DNA from: Ferrovibrio sp. MS7
GTDB lineage: Bacteria; Pseudomonadota; Alphaproteobacteria; Ferrovibrionales; Ferrovibrionaceae
DNA length: 64,000 bases
Direction: 5' to 3'
Assembly: GCF_038404985.1 (NCBI RefSeq)
Contig: NZ_JBBKBA010000001.1
Coordinates: forward strand, 1,950,001 to 2,014,000
Part shown: positions 1-10,540 of the stretch, in pieces
Position numbering within the stretch: position 1 is the stretch's first letter
Layout of the letters: each line of letters opens with the position of its first letter
The notes under the pieces: model-generated
What the model was told of the DNA's origin: nothing
Seen by the model: the letters and a program-made list of their open reading frames with translations, nothing else
The model's database searches: none
Translations under genes and position numbers: made by a program

Positions 1-176
1 ATTTCGTACCGATGCCGGCCTCGATCCTGGACTGGATGCAGGATTATGTGCGGCGGCATCCGCCGACCAAGGAGCATTACAAGCGCAAGCGCGACCGGGC
101 CAATCCGGAAGCACTGGCGCGGCGCACGCGGCTGTATGAATCCGATCCGCTGCGCCAGGTGCCCGAGGACGAGTGA
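1..176 (+). CDS. DUF3305 family protein, C-terminal part (formate dehydrogenase-associated)
   Basis: The reading frame is open from the window edge and ends at TGA 174-176, leaving about 57 C-terminal residues; the start lies outside. The visible part reads FVPMPASILDWMQDYV and then a very basic stretch (HYKRKRDR), the usual tail of DUF3305 proteins. These small proteins are encoded next to DUF3306 proteins and membrane-bound formate dehydrogenases in many proteobacteria; their biochemical role is not established. The call rests on the short tail together with the DUF3306 gene directly downstream, whose start codon is 8 bp past this stop. The operon therefore extends to the left of the window. 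Confidence 0.7.
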   Translation, partial: FVPMPASILDWMQDYVRRHPPTKEHYKRKRDRANPEALARRTRLYESDPLRQVPEDE

Positions 177-184
177 GGCAACAG

Positions 185-793
185 ATGGCCGCAGGCGAAC
201 GCGACAAACCCGAGCAGGACGACGGCGAGGCCGGCGGCTTCCTGTCGCGCTGGTCGCGGCGCAAGGCGGAAGCGCGGCGCGAGCCGCCGCCGGTGGCAGA
301 GCCGGTTGTTGAGGCAGAGGTCCCTGCGCTGGAGATCGATCCGGCGACGCTGCCGCCGATCGAGAGCCTGACCGCTGAGAGCGATTTCAGCGTTTTCCTG
401 CAAAAGGGCGTGCCGTCAGGTCTGCGTGCCGCTGCTTTGCGCAAGCTCTGGCTGGTCGAGCCCAGCGTGGTGAACTACAAGGCGCTGGTCGAATACAACT
501 GGGACTTCAACGCGCCGGGCTATGGCGAATTGCTGCCCACCGACGACATCGCGCAGATGGCGCAGCGGGTATTCTCCGGTTTCAGCCAGGACCCGAAGCC
601 GGAAGACCAGCCGCCGGCGGCTGGTGACGAGGCGGTGCCGCAGGCTTTGCCAGCACCGCAGGAAGAGGCGGTTGCGACAGTGCCGGCTGCCGAGCCTGCC
701 ATCGAGGCGGTGCCCGTCGTGGACGTTGAGCCACAGCCTGAACCTGTGATGCCATCGCCGCGGCGGCGGCATGGCGGGGCGCTGCCGACCTGA
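185..793 (+). CDS. DUF3306 family protein (formate dehydrogenase-associated)
   Basis: About 202 residues. An N-terminal FLSRWSRRK motif (near residues 17-25) is followed by a Pro/Ala/Glu-rich linker, then the conserved core around residues 65-135 (ESDFSVFLQKGVP, LRKLWLVEPSVV, WDFNAPGYGE), and a low-complexity acidic, proline-rich tail. This is the typical DUF3306 pattern. ATG 185 is chosen because GAGG (175-178) sits 6 bp upstream; an alternative GTG at 173 overlaps the preceding stop. DUF3306 proteins accompany DUF3305 proteins, a TorD-like chaperone and FDH genes, as here, so a role in FDH maturation or electron transfer is inferred. The molecular function is unknown. Confidence 0.85.
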   Translation: MAAGERDKPEQDDGEAGGFLSRWSRRKAEARREPPPVAEPVVEAEVPALEIDPATLPPIESLTAESDFSVFLQKGVPSGLRAAALRKLWLVEPSVVNYKALVEYNWDFNAPGYGELLPTDDIAQMAQRVFSGFSQDPKPEDQPPAAGDEAVPQALPAPQEEAVATVPAAEPAIEAVPVVDVEPQPEPVMPSPRRRHGGALPT

Positions 794-887: not shown

Positions 888-920
888 AAATCTTGCAACT
901 GAGAGTCGCTTGCAAGATTT
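888..920. promoter_or_regulatory. 11-bp perfect inverted repeat upstream of the HTH-TorD gene
   Basis: AAATCTTGCAA (888-898) and its exact reverse complement TTGCAAGATTT (910-920) are separated by 11 bp, so the half-site centres lie 22 bp apart, about two helical turns. A second, overlapping repeat (CGCTTGC 907-913, GCAAGCG 922-928) shares the right arm. The site lies about 100 bp before a gene whose product carries an N-terminal helix-turn-helix domain, so an operator is plausible. It is not a terminator because no T-run follows. Confidence 0.45.
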
Positions 921-951
921 CGCAAGCGCAGCAAATGCCCTGACAAATCAG

Positions 952-999
952 TTACTTACTGCGATTTCGGTTGCGTCCAACAAATGAATTTGTAAGTAA
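952..999. repeat. 8-bp inverted repeat in the leader of the HTH-TorD gene
   Basis: TTACTTAC (952-959) and its reverse complement GTAAGTAA (992-999) flank 32 bp and end just before the Shine-Dalgarno of the next gene. In RNA the arms could pair and partly occlude the ribosome site; in DNA they could be a second operator. This is observation only; pairing has not been tested. Confidence 0.3.
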
Positions 1000-1017
1000 T
1001 AACAATTGGAGGGAATC

Positions 1018-1827
1018 GTGAGCGCTGCACTGGCAAAAGTTGTAGAGATCGTGGGCGGGCAAACCCAGCTCGCGCGGCTGCTTGGCGTCAAGCAGGCCAA
1101 TGTGTGGCATTGGCTGAACAAGGCTGACCGCGTGCCGGGCGAATATGTACTGGCGATCGAGACCGCGACCGGCGGTCAGGTGACGCGCCATGACCTGCGC
1201 CCCGACCTCTATCCTGATGCCCAGGCGCTTGATGCCGCCCCGTCTATCCCTGAAGAAGATCTCTGGCGGGCACAGATTTATGCGCTGCTTGGCCGTTGCC
1301 TCGCGCGGCGCCCCGATACGGCGCTGCTGACCGCCCTGGCGCAGCTCAAGGGCGATGAAAGCCCGATGGGGCAGGCGCTGGGCGCGCTGGCCGAAGCCGC
1401 CCGCACCACATCGCTGGAGCGCGCCCAGGAAGAATACGATGCCTTGTTCATTGGTTTGCCGCGCGGCGAACTGGTGCCCTATGCCTCGTTCTATCGCACC
1501 GGCTTCCTCTACGAGCGCCCGCTGGCCAAGCTGCGCGGCGATATGCAGCAACTCGGCTATGCGCGCGCCGATCACGTCACCGAGCCGGAAGACCATATGG
1601 GCGCGCTGTGCGAATTGATGGCACTGCTGATCCGTGGCGGTGATGGTCGCGGCCCGGCGGAACTGAAGACGCAGGAGCGGCTGTATCAGCAGCATCTGGC
1701 ACCCTGGGGCGAACGCTTCTTCGCCGATCTGGAGCAGGCCGCCAGCGCGAAACTCTATCGGCCGCTCGGCACTGCCGGCCGGCTGTTCATGTTGATCGAA
1801 ACCCAGGCATTTGTGATGGCCGCCTGA
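1018..1827 (+). CDS. YdaS-type helix-turn-helix domain fused to a TorD-family molybdoenzyme chaperone
   Basis: About 269 residues from GTG 1018, preceded by a strong GGAGGG Shine-Dalgarno (1008-1013). Residues 1-66 form a Cro/YdaS-like DNA-binding domain (IVGGQTQLARLLGVKQANVW, VPGEYVLAIE, HDLRPDLYP). Residues 80-265 form an all-helical TorD/DmsD-type chaperone with the family motif EPEDHMGALCELM near residues 189-201. TorD-family proteins bind the Tat signal peptide and apo form of molybdoenzymes and help insert the cofactor before export; the client here should be the formate dehydrogenase encoded 0.3 kb downstream. The HTH fusion is unusual and suggests regulation coupled to enzyme maturation, which is an inference. 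Both domains are recognised with good confidence. Confidence 0.88.
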   Translation: MSAALAKVVEIVGGQTQLARLLGVKQANVWHWLNKADRVPGEYVLAIETATGGQVTRHDLRPDLYPDAQALDAAPSIPEEDLWRAQIYALLGRCLARRPDTALLTALAQLKGDESPMGQALGALAEAARTTSLERAQEEYDALFIGLPRGELVPYASFYRTGFLYERPLAKLRGDMQQLGYARADHVTEPEDHMGALCELMALLIRGGDGRGPAELKTQERLYQQHLAPWGERFFADLEQAASAKLYRPLGTAGRLFMLIETQAFVMAA

Positions 1828-1861: not shown

Positions 1862-2089
1862 ATGAGCAAGGACAACACCCCAGAGCAGAAGACACCGGAG
1901 AAGAAAGCGGCGCTCGATCGTCGCAGCTTTCTGCGTGCCGCTGGTGCGGGCGCTGCTGCTGCGGCGGCGGTGACCGTTGCGGCCAAGCCGGAACAGGCGG
2001 CGGCAACGGAGAATGCCGCGACCCGCAAGAAGCAGCGGTATCGGGAAACCGAGCATGTGAAGCGCTACTACGACAGCAACCGGCTTTAA
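1862..2089 (+). CDS. Small Tat-signal protein of the formate dehydrogenase region
   Basis: A 75-residue protein beginning 35 bp after the chaperone gene, with a GGAGG ribosome site. The basic N-terminus carries the twin-arginine motif DRRSFLRAAG near residues 19-28, followed by an alanine-rich hydrophobic stretch and a short polar tail (RYRETEHVKRYYDSN). It matches the conserved small 'formate dehydrogenase region Tat target' proteins that precede FDH catalytic subunits. Its role is unknown; a structural or assembly subunit of the exported complex is possible. There are no cysteines, so it is not itself a metalloprotein of the Fe-S type. Confidence 0.85.
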   Translation: MSKDNTPEQKTPEKKAALDRRSFLRAAGAGAAAAAAVTVAAKPEQAAATENAATRKKQRYRETEHVKRYYDSNRL

Positions 2090-2149: not shown

Positions 2150-5047
2150 ATGCTGATCAAGAAAAGCTCCACTACCGGCGCAGCCGCCAAGACTGGTGGC
2201 AAATTGTCCGGCCTGCTTGCCGGCGCCACCCTGCAGACGATGGATCGTCGTGGTTTCCTGAAAGCATCCGGCCTTGCGGCTGGTGGTCTGGCTGCCGTTT
2301 CGGCGCTGACCCCGGCGATGGTCAAGCAGGCCAAGGCGATGCCCTCGACCGGCGCCAATGTCGTCAAGAAGAAGAACATCTGCACCCATTGCTCGGTCGG
2401 CTGCACGGTCACCGCCGAAGTCGAGAATGGTGTGTGGGTCGGCCAGGAGCCGGCCTGGGAGAGCCCGATCAACCTCGGCACGCATTGCGCCAAGGGCGCC
2501 TCGATCCGCGAGCTGACCCATGGCGACCGCCGCCTGAAGTATCCGATGAAGCTGGTGGACGGGAAGTGGACCCGCATTAGCTGGGATACCGCGATCAACG
2601 AGATCGGCGACAAGCTGCTTGAGATCCGCCAGAAGTCCGGCCCGGAATCGGCCTACTGGCTCGGTTCGGCCAAGTTCTCCAACGAAGGCGGCTATCTGTT
2701 CCGCAAGTTCGCCGCCTTCTGGGGCACCAACAACATCGACCACCAGGCGCGTATCTGCCACTCGACCACGGTCGCCGGCGTAGCCAATACCTGGGGCTAC
2801 GGCGCGATGACCAACTCGTATAACGACATTCACAATTCCAAGTGCATCGTGATCATGGGCGGCAACCCCGCCGAGGCGCATCCGGTGTCGCTGCAGCATG
2901 TGCTGCGCGGCAAGGAGCAGAACAAGGCGCCGATGATCGTAATTGATCCGCGCTTCACCCGCACCGCCGCGCATGCCACCGAATACATGCGCATCCGTCC
3001 GGGCACCGATATCCCCACCATCTACGGCCTGCTGTGGCACATCTTCCAGAATGGCTGGGAAGACAAGGAATATATCCGCCAGCGCGTCTATGGCATGGAT
3101 GACATCCGCGCCGAAGTCGCCAAGTGGACGCCGGACGAAGTGGAGAAGGTCACCGGCGTTCCGGGCGAGCAGATGAAGCGCGTCGCCGAGCTGATGGCCA
3201 AGAACAAGCCCGGCACCCTGATCTGGTGCATGGGCGTGACGCAGCATACCGTGGGCACCGCCAACGTGCGTGCCCTGTCGATCCTGCAACTCGCGCTCGG
3301 CAATATCGGCGTGGAAGGCGGCGGCGCCAACATTTTCCGCGGCCACTGCAATGTTCAAGGCTGCACGGACCTTGGCCTCGACGTTACCACCCTGCCGGCC
3401 TATTACGGCCTGGTAGAAGGCGCCTGGAAGCATTGGGCCCGCGTCTGGGAAGTCGATTACAACTATCTGCTCGGCCGCTTCGCCGACAAGAAGTTCATGG
3501 AAGGCAAGGGCATCCCCTCGACCCGCTGGTTCGATGCCGTGCTGGTCGACAAGAAGGACCTGGAGCAGCCCGACAACGTGAAGGCGATGTTCTTCTGGGG
3601 CCATGGCGGCAACACCGTGCCGCGCATGCCCGAGATGCGCACCGGCATGGAGAAGGTGGAACTGATGGTCGTGGTCGATCCGCACCCGACCACTGCCGCC
3701 GCCCTGCCGGACCGCAAGAACGGCACCTATCTCTTGCCGGCCTGCACGCAGCTTGAAACCCGTGGCTCGCGCACCGCCTCGAACCGCTCGCTGCAGTGGG
3801 GCGAGCAGGTGGTGAAGCCGATCTTCGAATCGAAGCCGGATCACTGGATCCTGTACAAGCTGGCCCAGAAGCTCGGCTTCGATAAGGAGATGTTCAAGAA
3901 CATCAAGATCGACGAAGGCGACGAGCCGAATGTCGAGGACATCACCCGCGAGTTCAACCGCGGCACCATCTCGATCGGCTATTCCGGCCAGTCGCCGGAG
4001 CGCCTGAAGGAGCATATGGCGCATCAGGGCGATTTCGACATCGTGTCGTTGCGCGCCACCAAGGGCCCGCTCAAGGGCGAGTTCTACGGCCTGCCGTGGC
4101 CGTGCTGGGGCACGCCGGAGATGAAGCATCCGGGCACCCATGTGCTCTACAACACCAACCTGCCGGTGAAGGATGGCGGCGGTGCTTTCCGTGCCCGCTT
4201 CGGCGTCGAGCGCAATGGCGTTTCGCTGCTGGCCGATGGTTCCTACCCGAAGGATTCGGAGATTCAGGACGGCCATCCCGAATTCACCTATGGCCTGCTG
4301 AAGAAGATGGGCTGGGACAAGGAACTCACCGACGCCGAGCGCGCCACGATCGAGCGGATCGGCGGCAACAATCCGGATGCGGTGGGCTGGGCGATTGACC
4401 TGAGCTGCGGCATCATCCGCGTCTGCATGGCGCATGGCGTGCAGGCGATGGGTAACGCCAAGGCGCGTGCCAATGCCTTCGGTCTGCCCGATCCGATCCC
4501 GGTGCATCGCGAACCGCTCTACACCTCGCGTCGTGACCTGGTCGCCAAGTACCCGGCCATGGCCGACCGCCGCGACTACCGCCTGCCGCATCTCGGCAAG
4601 AGCGTGCAGGACAAGGATGTCACCAAGGACTTCCCGCTGATCCTGACCTCTGGCCGTCTGGTGGAATACGAAGGCGGTGGTGAAGAAACCCGCTCGAACA
4701 AGTGGCTGGCCGAGTTGCAGCAGAACATGTTCGTGGAAATCAATCCCGAGGATGCTGCCCGCCTTGGCATCAAGGAAGGCCAGAATGTCTGGGTCTATGG
4801 CCCGGAAAACAAGGCCAAGGCCAAGGTCAAGGCAATGGTTACGCCGCGTGTTGGCAAGGGCGTCGCCTTCATGCCGTTCCACTTCTCCGGCTTCTGGCAG
4901 GGTGTGGATCAGCGCAAGAACTATCCGCCGGGGGCCGATCCGATCGTGCTGGGCGAAGCCGTAAACGGCGTCACCACTTACGGCTACGATCCGGTCACTC
5001 ATATGCATGAGAACAAGGCCACCCTCTGCCGCATTGAAGCGGCCTAA
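2150..5047 (+). CDS. fdhA: Formate dehydrogenase catalytic (alpha) subunit, Mo/W-bis-MGD, Cys-containing
   Basis: A 965-residue member of the molybdopterin oxidoreductase family, which oxidises formate to CO2. A Tat signal (MDRRGFLKASG, residues 31-41) shows export, so the active site faces the periplasm. The N-terminal [4Fe-4S] site is C78-x2-C81-x3-C85...C113. The metal-ligand position lies in DHQARICHSTT: Cys203 (TGC 2756-2758) followed by His204, where selenocysteine enzymes such as E. coli FdnG use TGA. Central bis-MGD-binding domains and the C-terminal dinucleotide-binding domain (ILTSGRLVEYEGGG onward) are present and full length. ACGGAGAG (2137-2144) is the ribosome site. With the next two genes it forms a three-subunit membrane complex. 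No selenocysteine machinery is needed. Confidence 0.96.
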   Translation: MLIKKSSTTGAAAKTGGKLSGLLAGATLQTMDRRGFLKASGLAAGGLAAVSALTPAMVKQAKAMPSTGANVVKKKNICTHCSVGCTVTAEVENGVWVGQEPAWESPINLGTHCAKGASIRELTHGDRRLKYPMKLVDGKWTRISWDTAINEIGDKLLEIRQKSGPESAYWLGSAKFSNEGGYLFRKFAAFWGTNNIDHQARICHSTTVAGVANTWGYGAMTNSYNDIHNSKCIVIMGGNPAEAHPVSLQHVLRGKEQNKAPMIVIDPRFTRTAAHATEYMRIRPGTDIPTIYGLLWHIFQNGWEDKEYIRQRVYGMDDIRAEVAKWTPDEVEKVTGVPGEQMKRVAELMAKNKPGTLIWCMGVTQHTVGTANVRALSILQLALGNIGVEGGGANIFRGHCNVQGCTDLGLDVTTLPAYYGLVEGAWKHWARVWEVDYNYLLGRFADKKFMEGKGIPSTRWFDAVLVDKKDLEQPDNVKAMFFWGHGGNTVPRMPEMRTGMEKVELMVVVDPHPTTAAALPDRKNGTYLLPACTQLETRGSRTASNRSLQWGEQVVKPIFESKPDHWILYKLAQKLGFDKEMFKNIKIDEGDEPNVEDITREFNRGTISIGYSGQSPERLKEHMAHQGDFDIVSLRATKGPLKGEFYGLPWPCWGTPEMKHPGTHVLYNTNLPVKDGGGAFRARFGVERNGVSLLADGSYPKDSEIQDGHPEFTYGLLKKMGWDKELTDAERATIERIGGNNPDAVGWAIDLSCGIIRVCMAHGVQAMGNAKARANAFGLPDPIPVHREPLYTSRRDLVAKYPAMADRRDYRLPHLGKSVQDKDVTKDFPLILTSGRLVEYEGGGEETRSNKWLAELQQNMFVEINPEDAARLGIKEGQNVWVYGPENKAKAKVKAMVTPRVGKGVAFMPFHFSGFWQGVDQRKNYPPGADPIVLGEAVNGVTTYGYDPVTHMHENKATLCRIEAA

Positions 5048-5070: not shown

Positions 5071-5664
5071 ATGGCCCGCATGAAATTCCTCTGCGACTCC
5101 GAACGTTGCATCGAATGCAATGCCTGCGTCACCGCCTGTAAGAACGAACACGAAGTGCCCTGGGGCATCAATCGCCGCCGCGTCGTCACCCTGAATGACG
5201 GCGCCAAGGGCGAGCGTTCGATCTCGATGGCCTGCATGCATTGCGAAGATGCGCCCTGCATGGCCGTCTGCCCGGTCGATTGCTTCTACAAGACCGAGGA
5301 AGGCGTGGTGCTGCATTCCAAGGATCTGTGCATTGGCTGCGGCTATTGCTTCTATGCCTGCCCGTTCGGCGCGCCGCAGTATCCGCAGGTCGGCAATTTC
5401 GGCAGCCGTGGCAAGATGGATAAGTGCACCTTCTGCGCCGGCGGCCCCGAGGCTGACAACAGCAAGGAAGAATATGCCAAGTACGGTGCCAACCGCTTGG
5501 CCGAGGGCAAGCTGCCGCTCTGTGCCGAGATGTGCTCGACCAAGGCGCTGCTCGCCGGCGATGGCGACGTGATCGCGCAGATCTACAAGGAGCGCGTCAG
5601 CCGTCGTGGTTATGGGTCGGGTGCTTGGGGTTGGGCGACGGCCTACAAGGGCACGGCGGTTTGA
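5071..5664 (+). CDS. fdhB: Formate dehydrogenase iron-sulfur (beta) subunit
   Basis: 197 residues with sixteen cluster-ligand cysteines in four sets: C13/16/19/23, C55/58/63/67, C87/90/93/97, and C119/122 with C151/155. This is the four-[4Fe-4S] arrangement of FdnH/DmsB-type electron-transfer subunits. There is no signal peptide, so it would be exported by piggy-back with the Tat-bearing alpha subunit. It passes electrons from the alpha subunit to the cytochrome b subunit. It begins 23 bp after fdhA with a GGGGAG ribosome site and lacks the C-terminal membrane anchor seen in FdnH, a difference shared by shorter FdhB forms. Confidence 0.95.
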   Translation: MARMKFLCDSERCIECNACVTACKNEHEVPWGINRRRVVTLNDGAKGERSISMACMHCEDAPCMAVCPVDCFYKTEEGVVLHSKDLCIGCGYCFYACPFGAPQYPQVGNFGSRGKMDKCTFCAGGPEADNSKEEYAKYGANRLAEGKLPLCAEMCSTKALLAGDGDVIAQIYKERVSRRGYGSGAWGWATAYKGTAV

Positions 5665-5687: not shown

Positions 5688-6671
5688 ATGACCCTTTTCA
5701 ACATGCGCAAGGTCACGATGTCCAAACTCTGGGCCGCTCTGGCGCTTGGCCTGATGCTCAGCATCGCCAACATGGCACCGGCTTCGGCTCAATCGCAGCA
5801 GCAGGCTGATGAAGCCGCGCTGCTGCAGCAGCTCAAAGGTGCGCCGGTTGCCGGCCGGGTCTCGATCCCGGATGCCAAGTCCGGCGTGCTGATTCAGCCG
5901 CAGGGCCGCGAATGGCGCCAGACCCTGGAAGGTCCGGTGAAGTCGGCTGGCGGCTGGCTGCTGGTTCTCACCGTGGTGGCCATTGCCGCCTTCATGGCGA
6001 TCCGCGGCCGTATCAAGATCGAGCATGGCCCCTCAGGCCGCACCATCGAGCGGTTCAAGGGCATCGAGCGTTTCGCCCATTGGCTGACGGCAATCTGCTT
6101 CGTCATCCTCGGCCTCAGCGGTCTCAATATTTCCTTCGGCCGCAGCCTGCTGCTGCCGGTGATGGGGCCCGAGGCTTTCACCGCGATGAGTGCTTTCGGC
6201 AAGCTGGCGCATAACTTCCTCAGCTTCCCGTTCGTGCTTGGTGTTTTCCTGATGGCTGTGCTGTGGATCGCCCACAACATCCCGAATGCCATCGATGTGG
6301 AATGGATCAAGCAGGGCGGCGGCCTGTTCAAGAAGGGCGTGCATCCGCCGGCCGGCAAGTTCAATGCCGGCCAGAAGCTGATCTTCTGGTCTGTCGTGCT
6401 CGGCTCGACCGCGCTGGCGATCAGCGGCTACATCCTGATGTTCCCCTTCTATGTCACCGACATTGCCGGCATGCAGCTGGCGCAACTGGTGCACGCGATT
6501 GCCGGCATCCTGATGGTGGCGGTGATCCTGGGGCATATCTACATCGGCAGCATCGGCATGGAAGGCGCCTTCGATGCGATGGGCAGCGGCCAGGTCGATA
6601 CCAACTGGGCCAAGGAACATCACAGCCTGTGGGTGAAGGATGTGACCGCGCGCGGCGCGGGCGACGACTAG
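5688..6671 (+). CDS. fdhC: Formate dehydrogenase cytochrome b (gamma) subunit
   Basis: 327 residues from ATG 5688, chosen because GGGGAGGAA lies just upstream; an upstream in-frame extension would overlap fdhB. The N-terminus looks like a cleavable signal (MSKLWAALALGLMLSIANMAPASAQ) followed by a periplasmic segment, then four hydrophobic helices (about residues 88-105, 130-150, 175-198, 235-290). Candidate heme-b ligands are His131 (FAHW), His175, His269 (LVHA) and His283 (GHIY). The protein anchors the complex and transfers electrons to quinone. An extra N-terminal signal and periplasmic segment of about 85 residues is present, as in some FdoI-like proteins of non-enteric bacteria. Confidence 0.93.
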   Translation: MTLFNMRKVTMSKLWAALALGLMLSIANMAPASAQSQQQADEAALLQQLKGAPVAGRVSIPDAKSGVLIQPQGREWRQTLEGPVKSAGGWLLVLTVVAIAAFMAIRGRIKIEHGPSGRTIERFKGIERFAHWLTAICFVILGLSGLNISFGRSLLLPVMGPEAFTAMSAFGKLAHNFLSFPFVLGVFLMAVLWIAHNIPNAIDVEWIKQGGGLFKKGVHPPAGKFNAGQKLIFWSVVLGSTALAISGYILMFPFYVTDIAGMQLAQLVHAIAGILMVAVILGHIYIGSIGMEGAFDAMGSGQVDTNWAKEHHSLWVKDVTARGAGDD

Positions 6672-6795: not shown

Positions 6796-7767
6796 ATGCG
6801 AAGGGCGAACATGCGGCGACTGGCGGCGGCAATCGGTTTGATCCTGGGATTGGCCTGTCCTGCCGTGCCGGCGCAGGCCGATATGGTCGGCCACGGTGCC
6901 ATGGTCAATGCGGTATCGGTATCCGCCGATGGGCGCCGGTTGCTCTCAGCCAGTTGGGATTACACGGTTCGTCTCTGGGATCTGGCGAAGCAGAGCGAGT
7001 TGAAGGTTTTCGATGGCCATACCGCCAGCGTGAATGCTGTGCTGTTCATGCCCGATGGCAAGTCGGCACTATCGGCAAGCTGGGATCACACGGTGATCCG
7101 CTGGGATCTGAACAGCGGCAAGGAAACCGCAAAGCTCACCGGCCATGTCAACAACATTGCCGGCATGGCACTTAGCCGTGATGGCAAATGGCTGGCCACC
7201 GCCAGCTGGGATCGCAGCATCAAGCTTTGGAATCTCTCGACCAACAAGCTGGAGCGCAGTTTTGAAGGCCATGAGGCGAATGTGATGCAGGTCGCCTTCG
7301 CCATGGATGACAAGCAGCTTGTTTCGGTGGCGTATGATCTCACGGTGCGGTTATGGGATGTGGCCAGTGGCAAGGAGCTTGCCGCCATGACCGGCCATCA
7401 GGCGAGCGTGAATGCCGTCGCGGTTTCGCCGGATGGCAAAACCGCGCTGACCGGCAGCACGGATGGTACGATCAAGCGTTGGGATCTCGCCGCGCAGCGT
7501 GAAAGTGGCAGTCTGCCTGGCCATGGCGCGTTCATCACTTCGATCGCAATTTCGAAGGATGGCCGTTATGCGCTGTCGGGCGGCGGCGATCGGCTGATGC
7601 GGCTATGGGATTTAAACACCGGGCGCCAGATGAAGCAGTTTGCTGGCCATGAAAAGCCGGTCTGGTCTGTGGCGTTCACGCCCGATGGCAAACGCGCGGT
7701 GTCAGGCGGTTACGACACGGTGATCAAGGTTTGGTCGCTGGAGACCGGCGCGCTCATCAACAACTGA
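6796..7767 (+). CDS. Secreted WD40-repeat beta-propeller protein
   Basis: 323 residues. A signal peptide (RRLAAAIGLILGLACPAVPAQA) is followed by about seven WD40 blades, each ending in RLWDL, IRWDL, KLWNL or KVWSL, so one closed seven-bladed propeller is expected in the periplasm. A second ATG at 6811 is also possible as start. Propellers of this type are binding scaffolds with no catalytic motif. Its position after the fdh operon and before a cytochrome c suggests a link with the periplasmic respiratory chain, but the terminator between it and fdhC means it has its own promoter. The specific partner is unknown. Confidence 0.88.
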   Translation: MRRANMRRLAAAIGLILGLACPAVPAQADMVGHGAMVNAVSVSADGRRLLSASWDYTVRLWDLAKQSELKVFDGHTASVNAVLFMPDGKSALSASWDHTVIRWDLNSGKETAKLTGHVNNIAGMALSRDGKWLATASWDRSIKLWNLSTNKLERSFEGHEANVMQVAFAMDDKQLVSVAYDLTVRLWDVASGKELAAMTGHQASVNAVAVSPDGKTALTGSTDGTIKRWDLAAQRESGSLPGHGAFITSIAISKDGRYALSGGGDRLMRLWDLNTGRQMKQFAGHEKPVWSVAFTPDGKRAVSGGYDTVIKVWSLETGALINN

Positions 7768-8494: not shown

Positions 8495-10540
8495 ATGCGG
8501 CTGGACGGAAAACGCGTCCTGGTGTGCAACTGCGAAGGCACGATGCCGCTGGATGGCAAGGCGCTGGCGCGTGCCTGCGGCGCTGCCGAGGGCGGTGACG
8601 TCGCCAGCCAGCTTTGCCGTGCCCAGATCAAGAATTTCCAGGCGGCATTGCAGGCCGGCGAACCGCTGGTGGTGGCCTGCACCCAGGAAAGCCCGCTGTT
8701 CGACGAGCAGCGCGAGGAACTGGGCAGCGATGTTCCGGTCACCTATGTCAATATCCGCGAAACCGCCGGTTGGTCGGCGGAGGCGCCGGCGGCAACGCCG
8801 AAGATCGCCGCGCTGATTGCCGCCGCCACGGTGCCGTCGCCGGTCCTGCCGGCTGTCACGATGAAATCCGAAGGCGTGGCCCTGGTCTATGGCCGCGACG
8901 AGCAGGCAATCGCCGTGGCGCGACAGCTCAGCGACCGGCTCGATGTCACCATCATGCTGGACCGGCCGAAGGATGTGTCACCGCCTGCGGTGATGGATTT
9001 GCCAATCGTGCAGGGTCGCATCGCAACGGCACGCGGTCATCTCGGTGCGTTCGATCTGGTGATCGACGATTACGCCTTGCCGCTACCTTCCTCGCGCCGC
9101 AGCCTGCAATTCGGGGCACCGCGCAATGGTGCCAAATCGCGCTGCGATATCATCATCGATCTCACTGGCAGTGCACCGCTGTTTTCCGCCCATGAAAAGC
9201 GCGATGGCTATTTCCGCCCGGACCCCAAGGATCCGGCCGCGGTTCAGCTTGCGCTGTTCGAGGCCGCAGACCTGATCGGCAGTTTTGAAAAGCCGATCTA
9301 TGTCAATTTCCATGCCGAACTCTGCGCCCATAGCCGTTCGAAGAAAACCGGCTGCACACGCTGTCTCGATGTCTGCCCCACCGGGGCGATCACGCCGGCC
9401 GGCGACCATGTGGCCATCGATCCCTATATCTGCGGCGGCTGTGGCAATTGTGGCGCGGTCTGCCCGACCGGGGCCGCTGAATACAGCCTGCCACCGCCGG
9501 CCACGCTGACCGACCGCCTGCGCAGCCTGTTGCTGGCTTTTCGCGAAGCTGGCGGCAGCCAGGCCGTGATCCTGCTGCATGATGCCAAGCATGGTGCGCC
9601 GCTGATCGATGCGCTGGCGCGCTATGGCGATGGCCTGCCGGCCCGCGTGCTGCCTTTCGCCGTGCATGCGCTAGGCGAATGCAATGTGGCTTTCTTTGCG
9701 TCCGCCTTTGCCTATGGCGCCGCCGATCTGCGCATGCTGGCGCCGGCCAAGCGCAGCGACGATGTAGCCGGGCTGGGCCAGCAGCTGGCGCTGACCGAAA
9801 GCGTGCTGGTGGGCCTGGGCTATGAAGGCGGCCGCGTGGGCCTGATCGAGGCCGATGATCCGGACCGGCTGGCGGCGGCGCTTACCGCGCTGCCGCGCCG
9901 TGAAGGGCCAAGCGGTGCCAGCTATCTGCCGATGGGCCGCAACCGCGACCTGTCGCGCCTGGCCTTCCGGCATCTGCATGCGGTGGCGCCGCAGCCGGTG
10001 GATGCCGTGGTGCTGCCACCGGGCGCGCCGTTTGGCAGCCTGCAGGTCGATGCCGCGAATTGCACGCTTTGCCTGGCCTGTGTTTCCTCCTGCCCGACCG
10101 GTGCGCTGAGCGATGACCCGGAGCGTCCGCGCCTGACTTTCACCGAGGATGCCTGCGTGCAATGCGGCCTGTGCAAGGCGACCTGCCCTGAGAAGGTGAT
10201 CGCGCTCGAGCCGCGGGTGAATTTCACTGCCCAGTCGGCCCAGCCGCGCCTGGTGAAGGAAGAGGAGCCGTTCCACTGCATTCGCTGCGCCAAGCCGTTC
10301 GGCACCAAATCCTCGATCGAGAAGGTGATCGCCAAGCTGGAAGGCAAGCACTGGATGTATGGCCAGAGCGCCGTTGCCGACCGCATGCGGATGTGCGCCG
10401 ATTGCCGCGTGATCGTGCAGAGCGAAAGCAAGATCGATCCCTATGCCGGCGCACCACGCCCCGAAGTCCGCACCACGGATGATTACCTTGCCGAGCGCGC
10501 GGCAGCGGAATTCAAGGCTGCCGGCAAGAAGCCGTCATGA
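8495..10540 (+). CDS. Large cytoplasmic polyferredoxin (four [4Fe-4S] sites) of the fdh cluster
   Basis: 681 residues without signal or membrane segment. The N-terminal 270 residues contain scattered cysteines (VCNCEGTM, SQLCRAQ, VACTQES) and a Rossmann-like part. The first ferredoxin pair is C287/290/294 (with C277) and C313/316/319/323; a second pair (CTLCLACVSSCP and CVQCGLCKATCP) lies around residues 520-560. A C-terminal zinc-ribbon-like HCIRC...MCADC module follows. Such proteins recur beside DUF3305/DUF3306 and FDH genes in Alpha- and Betaproteobacteria. It probably moves electrons in the cytoplasm during FDH maturation or turnover. The stop overlaps the mobB start as ATGA, so the two are translationally coupled. 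The exact reaction is unknown. Confidence 0.85.
   Translation: MRLDGKRVLVCNCEGTMPLDGKALARACGAAEGGDVASQLCRAQIKNFQAALQAGEPLVVACTQESPLFDEQREELGSDVPVTYVNIRETAGWSAEAPAATPKIAALIAAATVPSPVLPAVTMKSEGVALVYGRDEQAIAVARQLSDRLDVTIMLDRPKDVSPPAVMDLPIVQGRIATARGHLGAFDLVIDDYALPLPSSRRSLQFGAPRNGAKSRCDIIIDLTGSAPLFSAHEKRDGYFRPDPKDPAAVQLALFEAADLIGSFEKPIYVNFHAELCAHSRSKKTGCTRCLDVCPTGAITPAGDHVAIDPYICGGCGNCGAVCPTGAAEYSLPPPATLTDRLRSLLLAFREAGGSQAVILLHDAKHGAPLIDALARYGDGLPARVLPFAVHALGECNVAFFASAFAYGAADLRMLAPAKRSDDVAGLGQQLALTESVLVGLGYEGGRVGLIEADDPDRLAAALTALPRREGPSGASYLPMGRNRDLSRLAFRHLHAVAPQPVDAVVLPPGAPFGSLQVDAANCTLCLACVSSCPTGALSDDPERPRLTFTEDACVQCGLCKATCPEKVIALEPRVNFTAQSAQPRLVKEEEPFHCIRCAKPFGTKSSIEKVIAKLEGKHWMYGQSAVADRMRMCADCRVIVQSESKIDPYAGAPRPEVRTTDDYLAERAAAEFKAAGKKPS

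Follow-up and report, generated by a model that had tools for sequence, protein, structure and literature searches.

The window analysed here is a stretch of 64,000 nucleotides from the genome of Ferrovibrio sp. MS7. Close to its start we find an operon for an FDH3-type formate dehydrogenase with the gene order torD-tat-fdhABC, whose first gene encodes a helix-turn-helix (HTH) domain fused to a TorD-type chaperone (Table 1). Genes of the DUF3305/DUF3306 type beside such operons have been noted in a survey of the chaperone family (PMC4464133), and a Bradyrhizobium plasmid shows the same gene order, including the DUF3306 neighbour. In all loci with enough sequence (45 out of 45), fdhA is located immediately downstream of the fused torD. 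No phage context was seen in the 10 kb of sequence examined. A WD40-repeat protein is encoded directly 3' of the fdh operon (6796-7767), and a polyferredoxin-like protein of 681 residues with several 4Fe-4S domains lies nearby (8495-10540).

Table 1. Features of the fdh region, in positions of the window.
Feature	Position	Strand	Basis or remark
Upstream gene, DUF3306, usual neighbour of such operons	173..793	+	profile match
11-bp inverted repeat AAATCTTGCAA / TTGCAAGATTT, N11 between the arms	888..920		outside the window, a strong dyad in L005 only
Conserved block TTGCAAGATTTCGCAAGCGCA (relatives: GCTYGCAAAATTTCGCANNTGC)	910..930		aligned upstream regions
Probable -35, TTGCGT	971..976	+	conserved promoter-like pair
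Best candidate operator ACAAA-TGAA-TTTGT, 14-bp dyad	980..993	+	conserved with this HTH type
Probable -10, TAAGTA, overlapping the last base of the 980-993 dyad	993..998	+	conserved promoter-like pair
Ribosome-binding site GGAGGG of the fusion gene	1008..1013	+	sequence
HTH-TorD fusion gene, opens the fdh operon	1018..1827	+	GTG start; orthologues L041-L047
Cro/YdaS-type HTH, residues 5-67	1030..1218	+	PF15943 profile, Xfaso 1 Cro fold, alignment
TorD/DmsD chaperone domain	1252..1824	+	PF02613; DmsD, YcdY and NarJ folds; EPEDH motif
Small Tat-signal protein, formate dehydrogenase region TAT target (TIGR02811)	1862..2089	+	above cut-off
fdhA, alpha subunit of formate dehydrogenase, Tat signal present, presumed client	2150..5047	+	profile matches
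fdhB, FDH3-type beta subunit	5071..5664	+	NF038355, 343.5 bits vs cut-off 240
fdhC, cytochrome b gamma subunit	5688..6671	+	TIGR01583, above cut-off

A preliminary description of the locus had read the first gene as an HTH joined to a TorD-family chaperone, and profile searches as well as the folds of a structure model agree with this. The YdaS profile PF15943 matches residues 5-67 (E 8.5e-25, 86.8 bits against a cut-off of 30), the P22 Cro profile (PF14549) also matches the N-terminal 67 residues, and the TorD/NarJ profile PF02613 matches residues 114-235 (E 3.9e-30, 105 bits against a gathering score of 22.2). The AlphaFold2 model of the protein rests on a shallow alignment and has a mean pLDDT of 68, with the HTH blocks mostly at 70-88. 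Its HTH superimposes on Xfaso 1 Cro (3bd1) with an rmsd of 0.9 A over 61 columns; a Foldseek search with the N-terminus also retrieves YdaS and N15 Cro, while the remaining, all-helical part matches DmsD, YcdY and NarJ. The EPEDH motif (E189 P190 E191 D192 H193) is invariant across the aligned copies, and all aligned copies from the Ferrovibrionaceae share one recognition helix, KQANVWHWLN. A protein with 100% identity is encoded in the MAG JAGOQS01.

By profile and fold, the N-terminal domain is the same as that of the YdaS and P22-type Cro proteins (PF15943, PF14549; 3bd1, 8co2). Cro/YdaS proteins bind palindromes in promoters, their own included; the YdaS encoded by prophage CP-933P, an analogue of Cro, acts as a repressor at palindromes of its own promoter (PMC8630535). 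Whether the YdaS Pfam family deserves its toxin label is disputed. In contrast to the phage YdaS/Cro proteins, which stand alone, the Ferrovibrio domain has a chaperone as fusion partner and belongs to a metabolic operon. The C-terminal domain shares with TorD, DmsD and NarJ the PF02613 family, the EPEDH motif and the position before a Tat-signal molybdoenzyme. TorD-type proteins bind the Tat signal peptides of molybdoenzymes.

As the operator of the fused HTH, an inverted repeat about 100 bp upstream of the gene had been proposed. The repeat is exact, with AAATCTTGCAA at 888-898 and TTGCAAGATTT at 910-920, and since it occurs a single time in the window even when three mismatches are allowed, and in none of 100 shuffles, it lies beyond chance. 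Its dyad symmetry is not kept in relatives, whereas that of the dyad at 980-993, which the preliminary description does not list, is better conserved. In the aligned upstream regions, all 11 positions are paired in the window and 10 in L005, and the count falls to 7, 6, 4, 4, 4 and 4 in other Ferrovibrionaceae and to 3 in the distant L054. The dyad is thus lost although the aligned Ferrovibrionaceae copies have an identical recognition helix; 888-920 was rejected as operator on grounds of conservation, and its assignment as such is probably wrong. That the HTH sits on this repeat and is released by client binding, as first suggested, appears very improbable to us: the exact arms, far beyond chance in the window, and the ten retained pairs in L005 speak for it, but orthologues with the same recognition helix have lost the dyad and kept 980-993. 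Moreover, a repressor released by its client would lead to positive feedback, because FdhA and the chaperone are encoded in the same operon.

The part of 888-930 that is conserved comprises the right arm of the repeat and the sequence 3' of it (GCTYGCAAAATTTCGCANNTGC in relatives). We consider the block at 910-930 as probably the site of another regulator. In the window, in L041-L047 and in L054, approximately 100 bp before the start codon, this block partly reads TTCGCA-NN-TGCGAA. In relatives it is preceded, at 888-910, by a stretch that resembles a Fur box by eye, TGCGAATAAGAATCGCTCTCA.

The ACAAA-N4-TTTGT dyad is kept in all relatives and its four central bases vary, as expected for a protein-binding dyad. 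In 9 out of 9 loci the dyad occupies the spacer between the two elements of a promoter-like pair, TTGNNN-N16/17-TA[AG]NNW. Because a strict sigma-70 scan calls no promoter at 971-998, where a strong consensus is absent, the torD promoter is proposed from this conservation. In whole-genome scans (4.1-4.9 Mb), five Ferrovibrio genomes matched the pattern ACAAAN4TTTGTRRG, each of them at the torD promoter only; in G012 this site is matched on both strands. The reversed pattern, used as control, gave no match in the Ferrovibrio scans. At four loci of family f128 (L055, L056, L058 and L063), which carry the WHW type of HTH described below, the dyad occurs twice, one copy near the start codon and the other about 220-230 bp further upstream, where it is followed by TATGTT or TATGCT.

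For a comparison across relatives, about 100 related genes were collected from searches of the family, the class, three further orders and the phylum. At least ten families of Alphaproteobacteria have the HTH-TorD fusion; outside this class, 32 genomes gave matches, none of them with the fusion at the threshold used. Two types of YdaS-like HTH can be distinguished, and each is found with its own dyad. The WHW type, with these three residues in its recognition helix, occurs in the Ferrovibrionaceae and in part of family f128, and ACAAA-N4-TTTGT is present within one mismatch at 16 out of 16 of its loci (families f1 and f128). Loci with the QPS type (QPSVS-W) show a different dyad, CATAG-N7-CTATG, within one mismatch in 27 of 29 cases and within two mismatches in all 29. 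Family f128 holds both HTH types, each with the dyad that belongs to it. Neither dyad was found within one mismatch upstream of any of 55 unfused torD genes. By first-order shuffling, 2% of the loci would be expected to carry ACAAA-N4-TTTGT and 0.2% CATAG-N7-CTATG. The first motif was read from family f1 and L013 and the second by eye from six loci, such that the remaining loci served as tests. Later finds outside the motif definition comprise an exact site (L200), a site with one mismatch (L202), a variant of the same spacing, GATAA-N7-TTATC (L201), and the site CTATAGCCTCAACCTATTG on the plasmid of Bradyrhizobium sp. 131. One genome, G562, contains both a fused torD and an unfused copy (L079 and L181), and the unfused copy is without the dyad.

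A third fusion (L019, the same locus as L074) carries an HTH_3/HTH_31 domain at the same position of the chaperone, and its upstream region contains the dyad TGCATCG-N4-CGATGCA with 7-bp arms. This is suggestive of a third HTH type that goes with its own dyad, as judged from the sequence of one genome. In L051 (genome G400), a deletion in the HTH shifts the frame of the YdaS-TorD fusion, and a CATAG-N7-CTATT site is still there.

The layout of the two main dyads recalls phage operators. ACAA-N6-TTGT within 14 bp is, as we take it, the arrangement of the phage 434 operator, and the 17 bp of CATAG-N7-CTATG presumably equal the lambda operator in length. Both HTH types have a Gln at the first position of the recognition helix, which we assume to be the residue that contacts the outer A in the 434 and lambda repressors. 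These repressors are only distant relatives of the fused HTHs, and the likeness is one of layout and of this Gln.

Since the dyads track the HTH type and the promoters of unfused torD genes have neither of them, the fused HTH very probably autoregulates the fdh operon, and the assembly chaperone probably doubles as a switch. The comparison gives good support to the earlier idea that the chaperone switches its own transcription: three fused HTH types, two of them well sampled and the third met once, have different promoter dyads, and unfused genes lack the two sampled ones. The choice of 888-920 as operator is probably mistaken.

The dyads might also be bound by other regulators, e.g., a LysR-type protein in case of CATAG-N7-CTATG, while the fused HTH acts elsewhere. 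CATAG-N7-CTATG fits the T-N11-A layout of LysR-type sites, and a site of this type adjoins some LysR genes (L136, L135). ATAG-N7-CTAT boxes, often GATAG-N7-CTATC, are located upstream of fdsG (L160, L161, L163, L165, L167, L168), approximately 100-180 bp before the operon of the NAD-dependent formate dehydrogenase, and perfect CATAG-N7-CTATG sites precede fdsG in two genomes with a fusion, G526 and G562. The same kind of box stands at fds promoters where the genome has no fusion, and for this reason the fds boxes are no evidence for the fusion protein, and the fds operon, once considered as its second target, was withdrawn. The box before fdsG is probably the site of a LysR-type regulator, and its T-N11-A layout keeps such a regulator in play for the CATAG-N7-CTATG sites at torD. 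For the torD promoters as a whole we consider this explanation unlikely. It does not account for a dyad at all fused torD promoters and at 0 of 55 unfused ones, for its absence from unfused genes nested among the fused, or for the different 14-bp dyad of the WHW type, which is not LysR-like. In G052, a further site is situated 8 kb from torD between convergent genes; it was excluded from the counts.

In a tree of the TorD part, a single supported clade unites the QPS-type fusions with eight unfused genes, none of which has the dyad. A single clade of all YdaS-type fusions was rejected (AU p 1.7e-4). Two separate origins of the WHW type are unsupported, as a single origin is not rejected by the tree test. 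At least two origins are counted for the fusion with YdaS-type HTHs, and one with another HTH. Independent contrasts gave two supported pairs and none to the contrary, and have little power. Some relatives do without the HTH, which might argue that it is a relic or merely dimerises the chaperone; we give this hardly any credence, as the recognition helix is invariant in the aligned Ferrovibrionaceae and a matching dyad is found in every lineage.

Implementing all facts, we propose the following model and consider it likely as a whole. Two copies of the Cro/YdaS-type HTH, presumably as a dimer, would bind ACAAA-N4-TTTGT at 980-993. Placed between -35 and -10, they would block RNA polymerase and repress torD-tat-fdhABC. 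The protein would then act as a one-component autoregulator, with the TorD-type chaperone of the downstream-encoded formate dehydrogenase as its second half. In a more weakly supported step, apo-FdhA or its Tat peptide on the TorD domain may alter DNA binding and in this way couple synthesis to assembly. Binding, repression and dimerisation of the fusion protein are predicted here from sequence comparison. Repression need not be general. QPS-type sites often overlap a possible -10; those of Bradyrhizobium-like genomes, by contrast, lie upstream of a good -35 and outside the spacer (e.g., L075, L077), and because of this position activation is possible in these genomes.

Within this autoregulation, the role of the client can be read in several ways, and the probabilities we attach to the alternatives overlap, the client-related ones being variants of the explanation we prefer. 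In the first suggestion the client lifts repression. Considering the circuit, a repressor that is client-bound, or autoregulation that is independent of the client, seems at least as plausible, since with client and chaperone in one operon both would act homeostatically. In the client-independent case, the HTH would steady the levels of chaperone and enzyme by negative autoregulation, and the TorD part would be a chaperone only. This fits all binding-site evidence equally well and is a serious possibility, albeit somewhat improbable in our view: control of this kind needs no fusion, and the at least three independent HTH fusions suggest a benefit of the physical linkage. Alternatively, the client-bound chaperone could be the DNA-binding form, with the client as corepressor, such that a build-up of apo-enzyme, e.g., upon shortage of the molybdenum cofactor, shuts the operon. 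Homeostatic feedback would follow from the shared operon, but a free Cro-like HTH is usually expected to bind unaided, and we regard this variant as possible though rather doubtful. The best hint that the linkage matters is the repetition of the fusion with different HTHs. We tentatively suggest, as a reading that is close to evenly balanced but falls slightly short of it, that the TorD-type chaperone of our autoregulator serves as sensor domain, that its occupancy by unassembled formate dehydrogenase sets the transcription of the operon, and that this solution was reached at least three times, each with a different HTH domain and with rewired operators.

A chaperone that doubles as regulator has a precedent in SicA, a type III secretion chaperone that co-regulates its own operon. 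Like the fusion protein it binds a client; unlike the fusion protein, which carries its own HTH, it needs a separate transcription factor, and the two are unrelated. The TorD/DmsD/NarJ survey (PMC4464133) and a review (PMC10609526) do not mention a DNA-binding domain, text searches of open-access papers returned no description of an HTH-TorD protein, and RefSeq labels the Bradyrhizobium fusion as TorD family chaperone only. Both halves are known, and their combination to a regulator with a chaperone as sensor appears to be undescribed. If the model is true, one protein would measure the assembly state of a molybdoenzyme directly and feed it to transcription, and no sensor apart from it would be needed. 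The matching of synthesis to cofactor loading in molybdoenzymes is an open question, which this protein makes testable, and the fusion is widespread in Alphaproteobacteria, including Bradyrhizobium.

Besides the dyads treated above, a TGCTGC-N3-GCAGCA-type dyad is observed upstream of torD in several families (L055, L056, L058, L051, L049, L073, L094). The CTGC-N3-GCAG inside it presumably recalls the site of PhaR.
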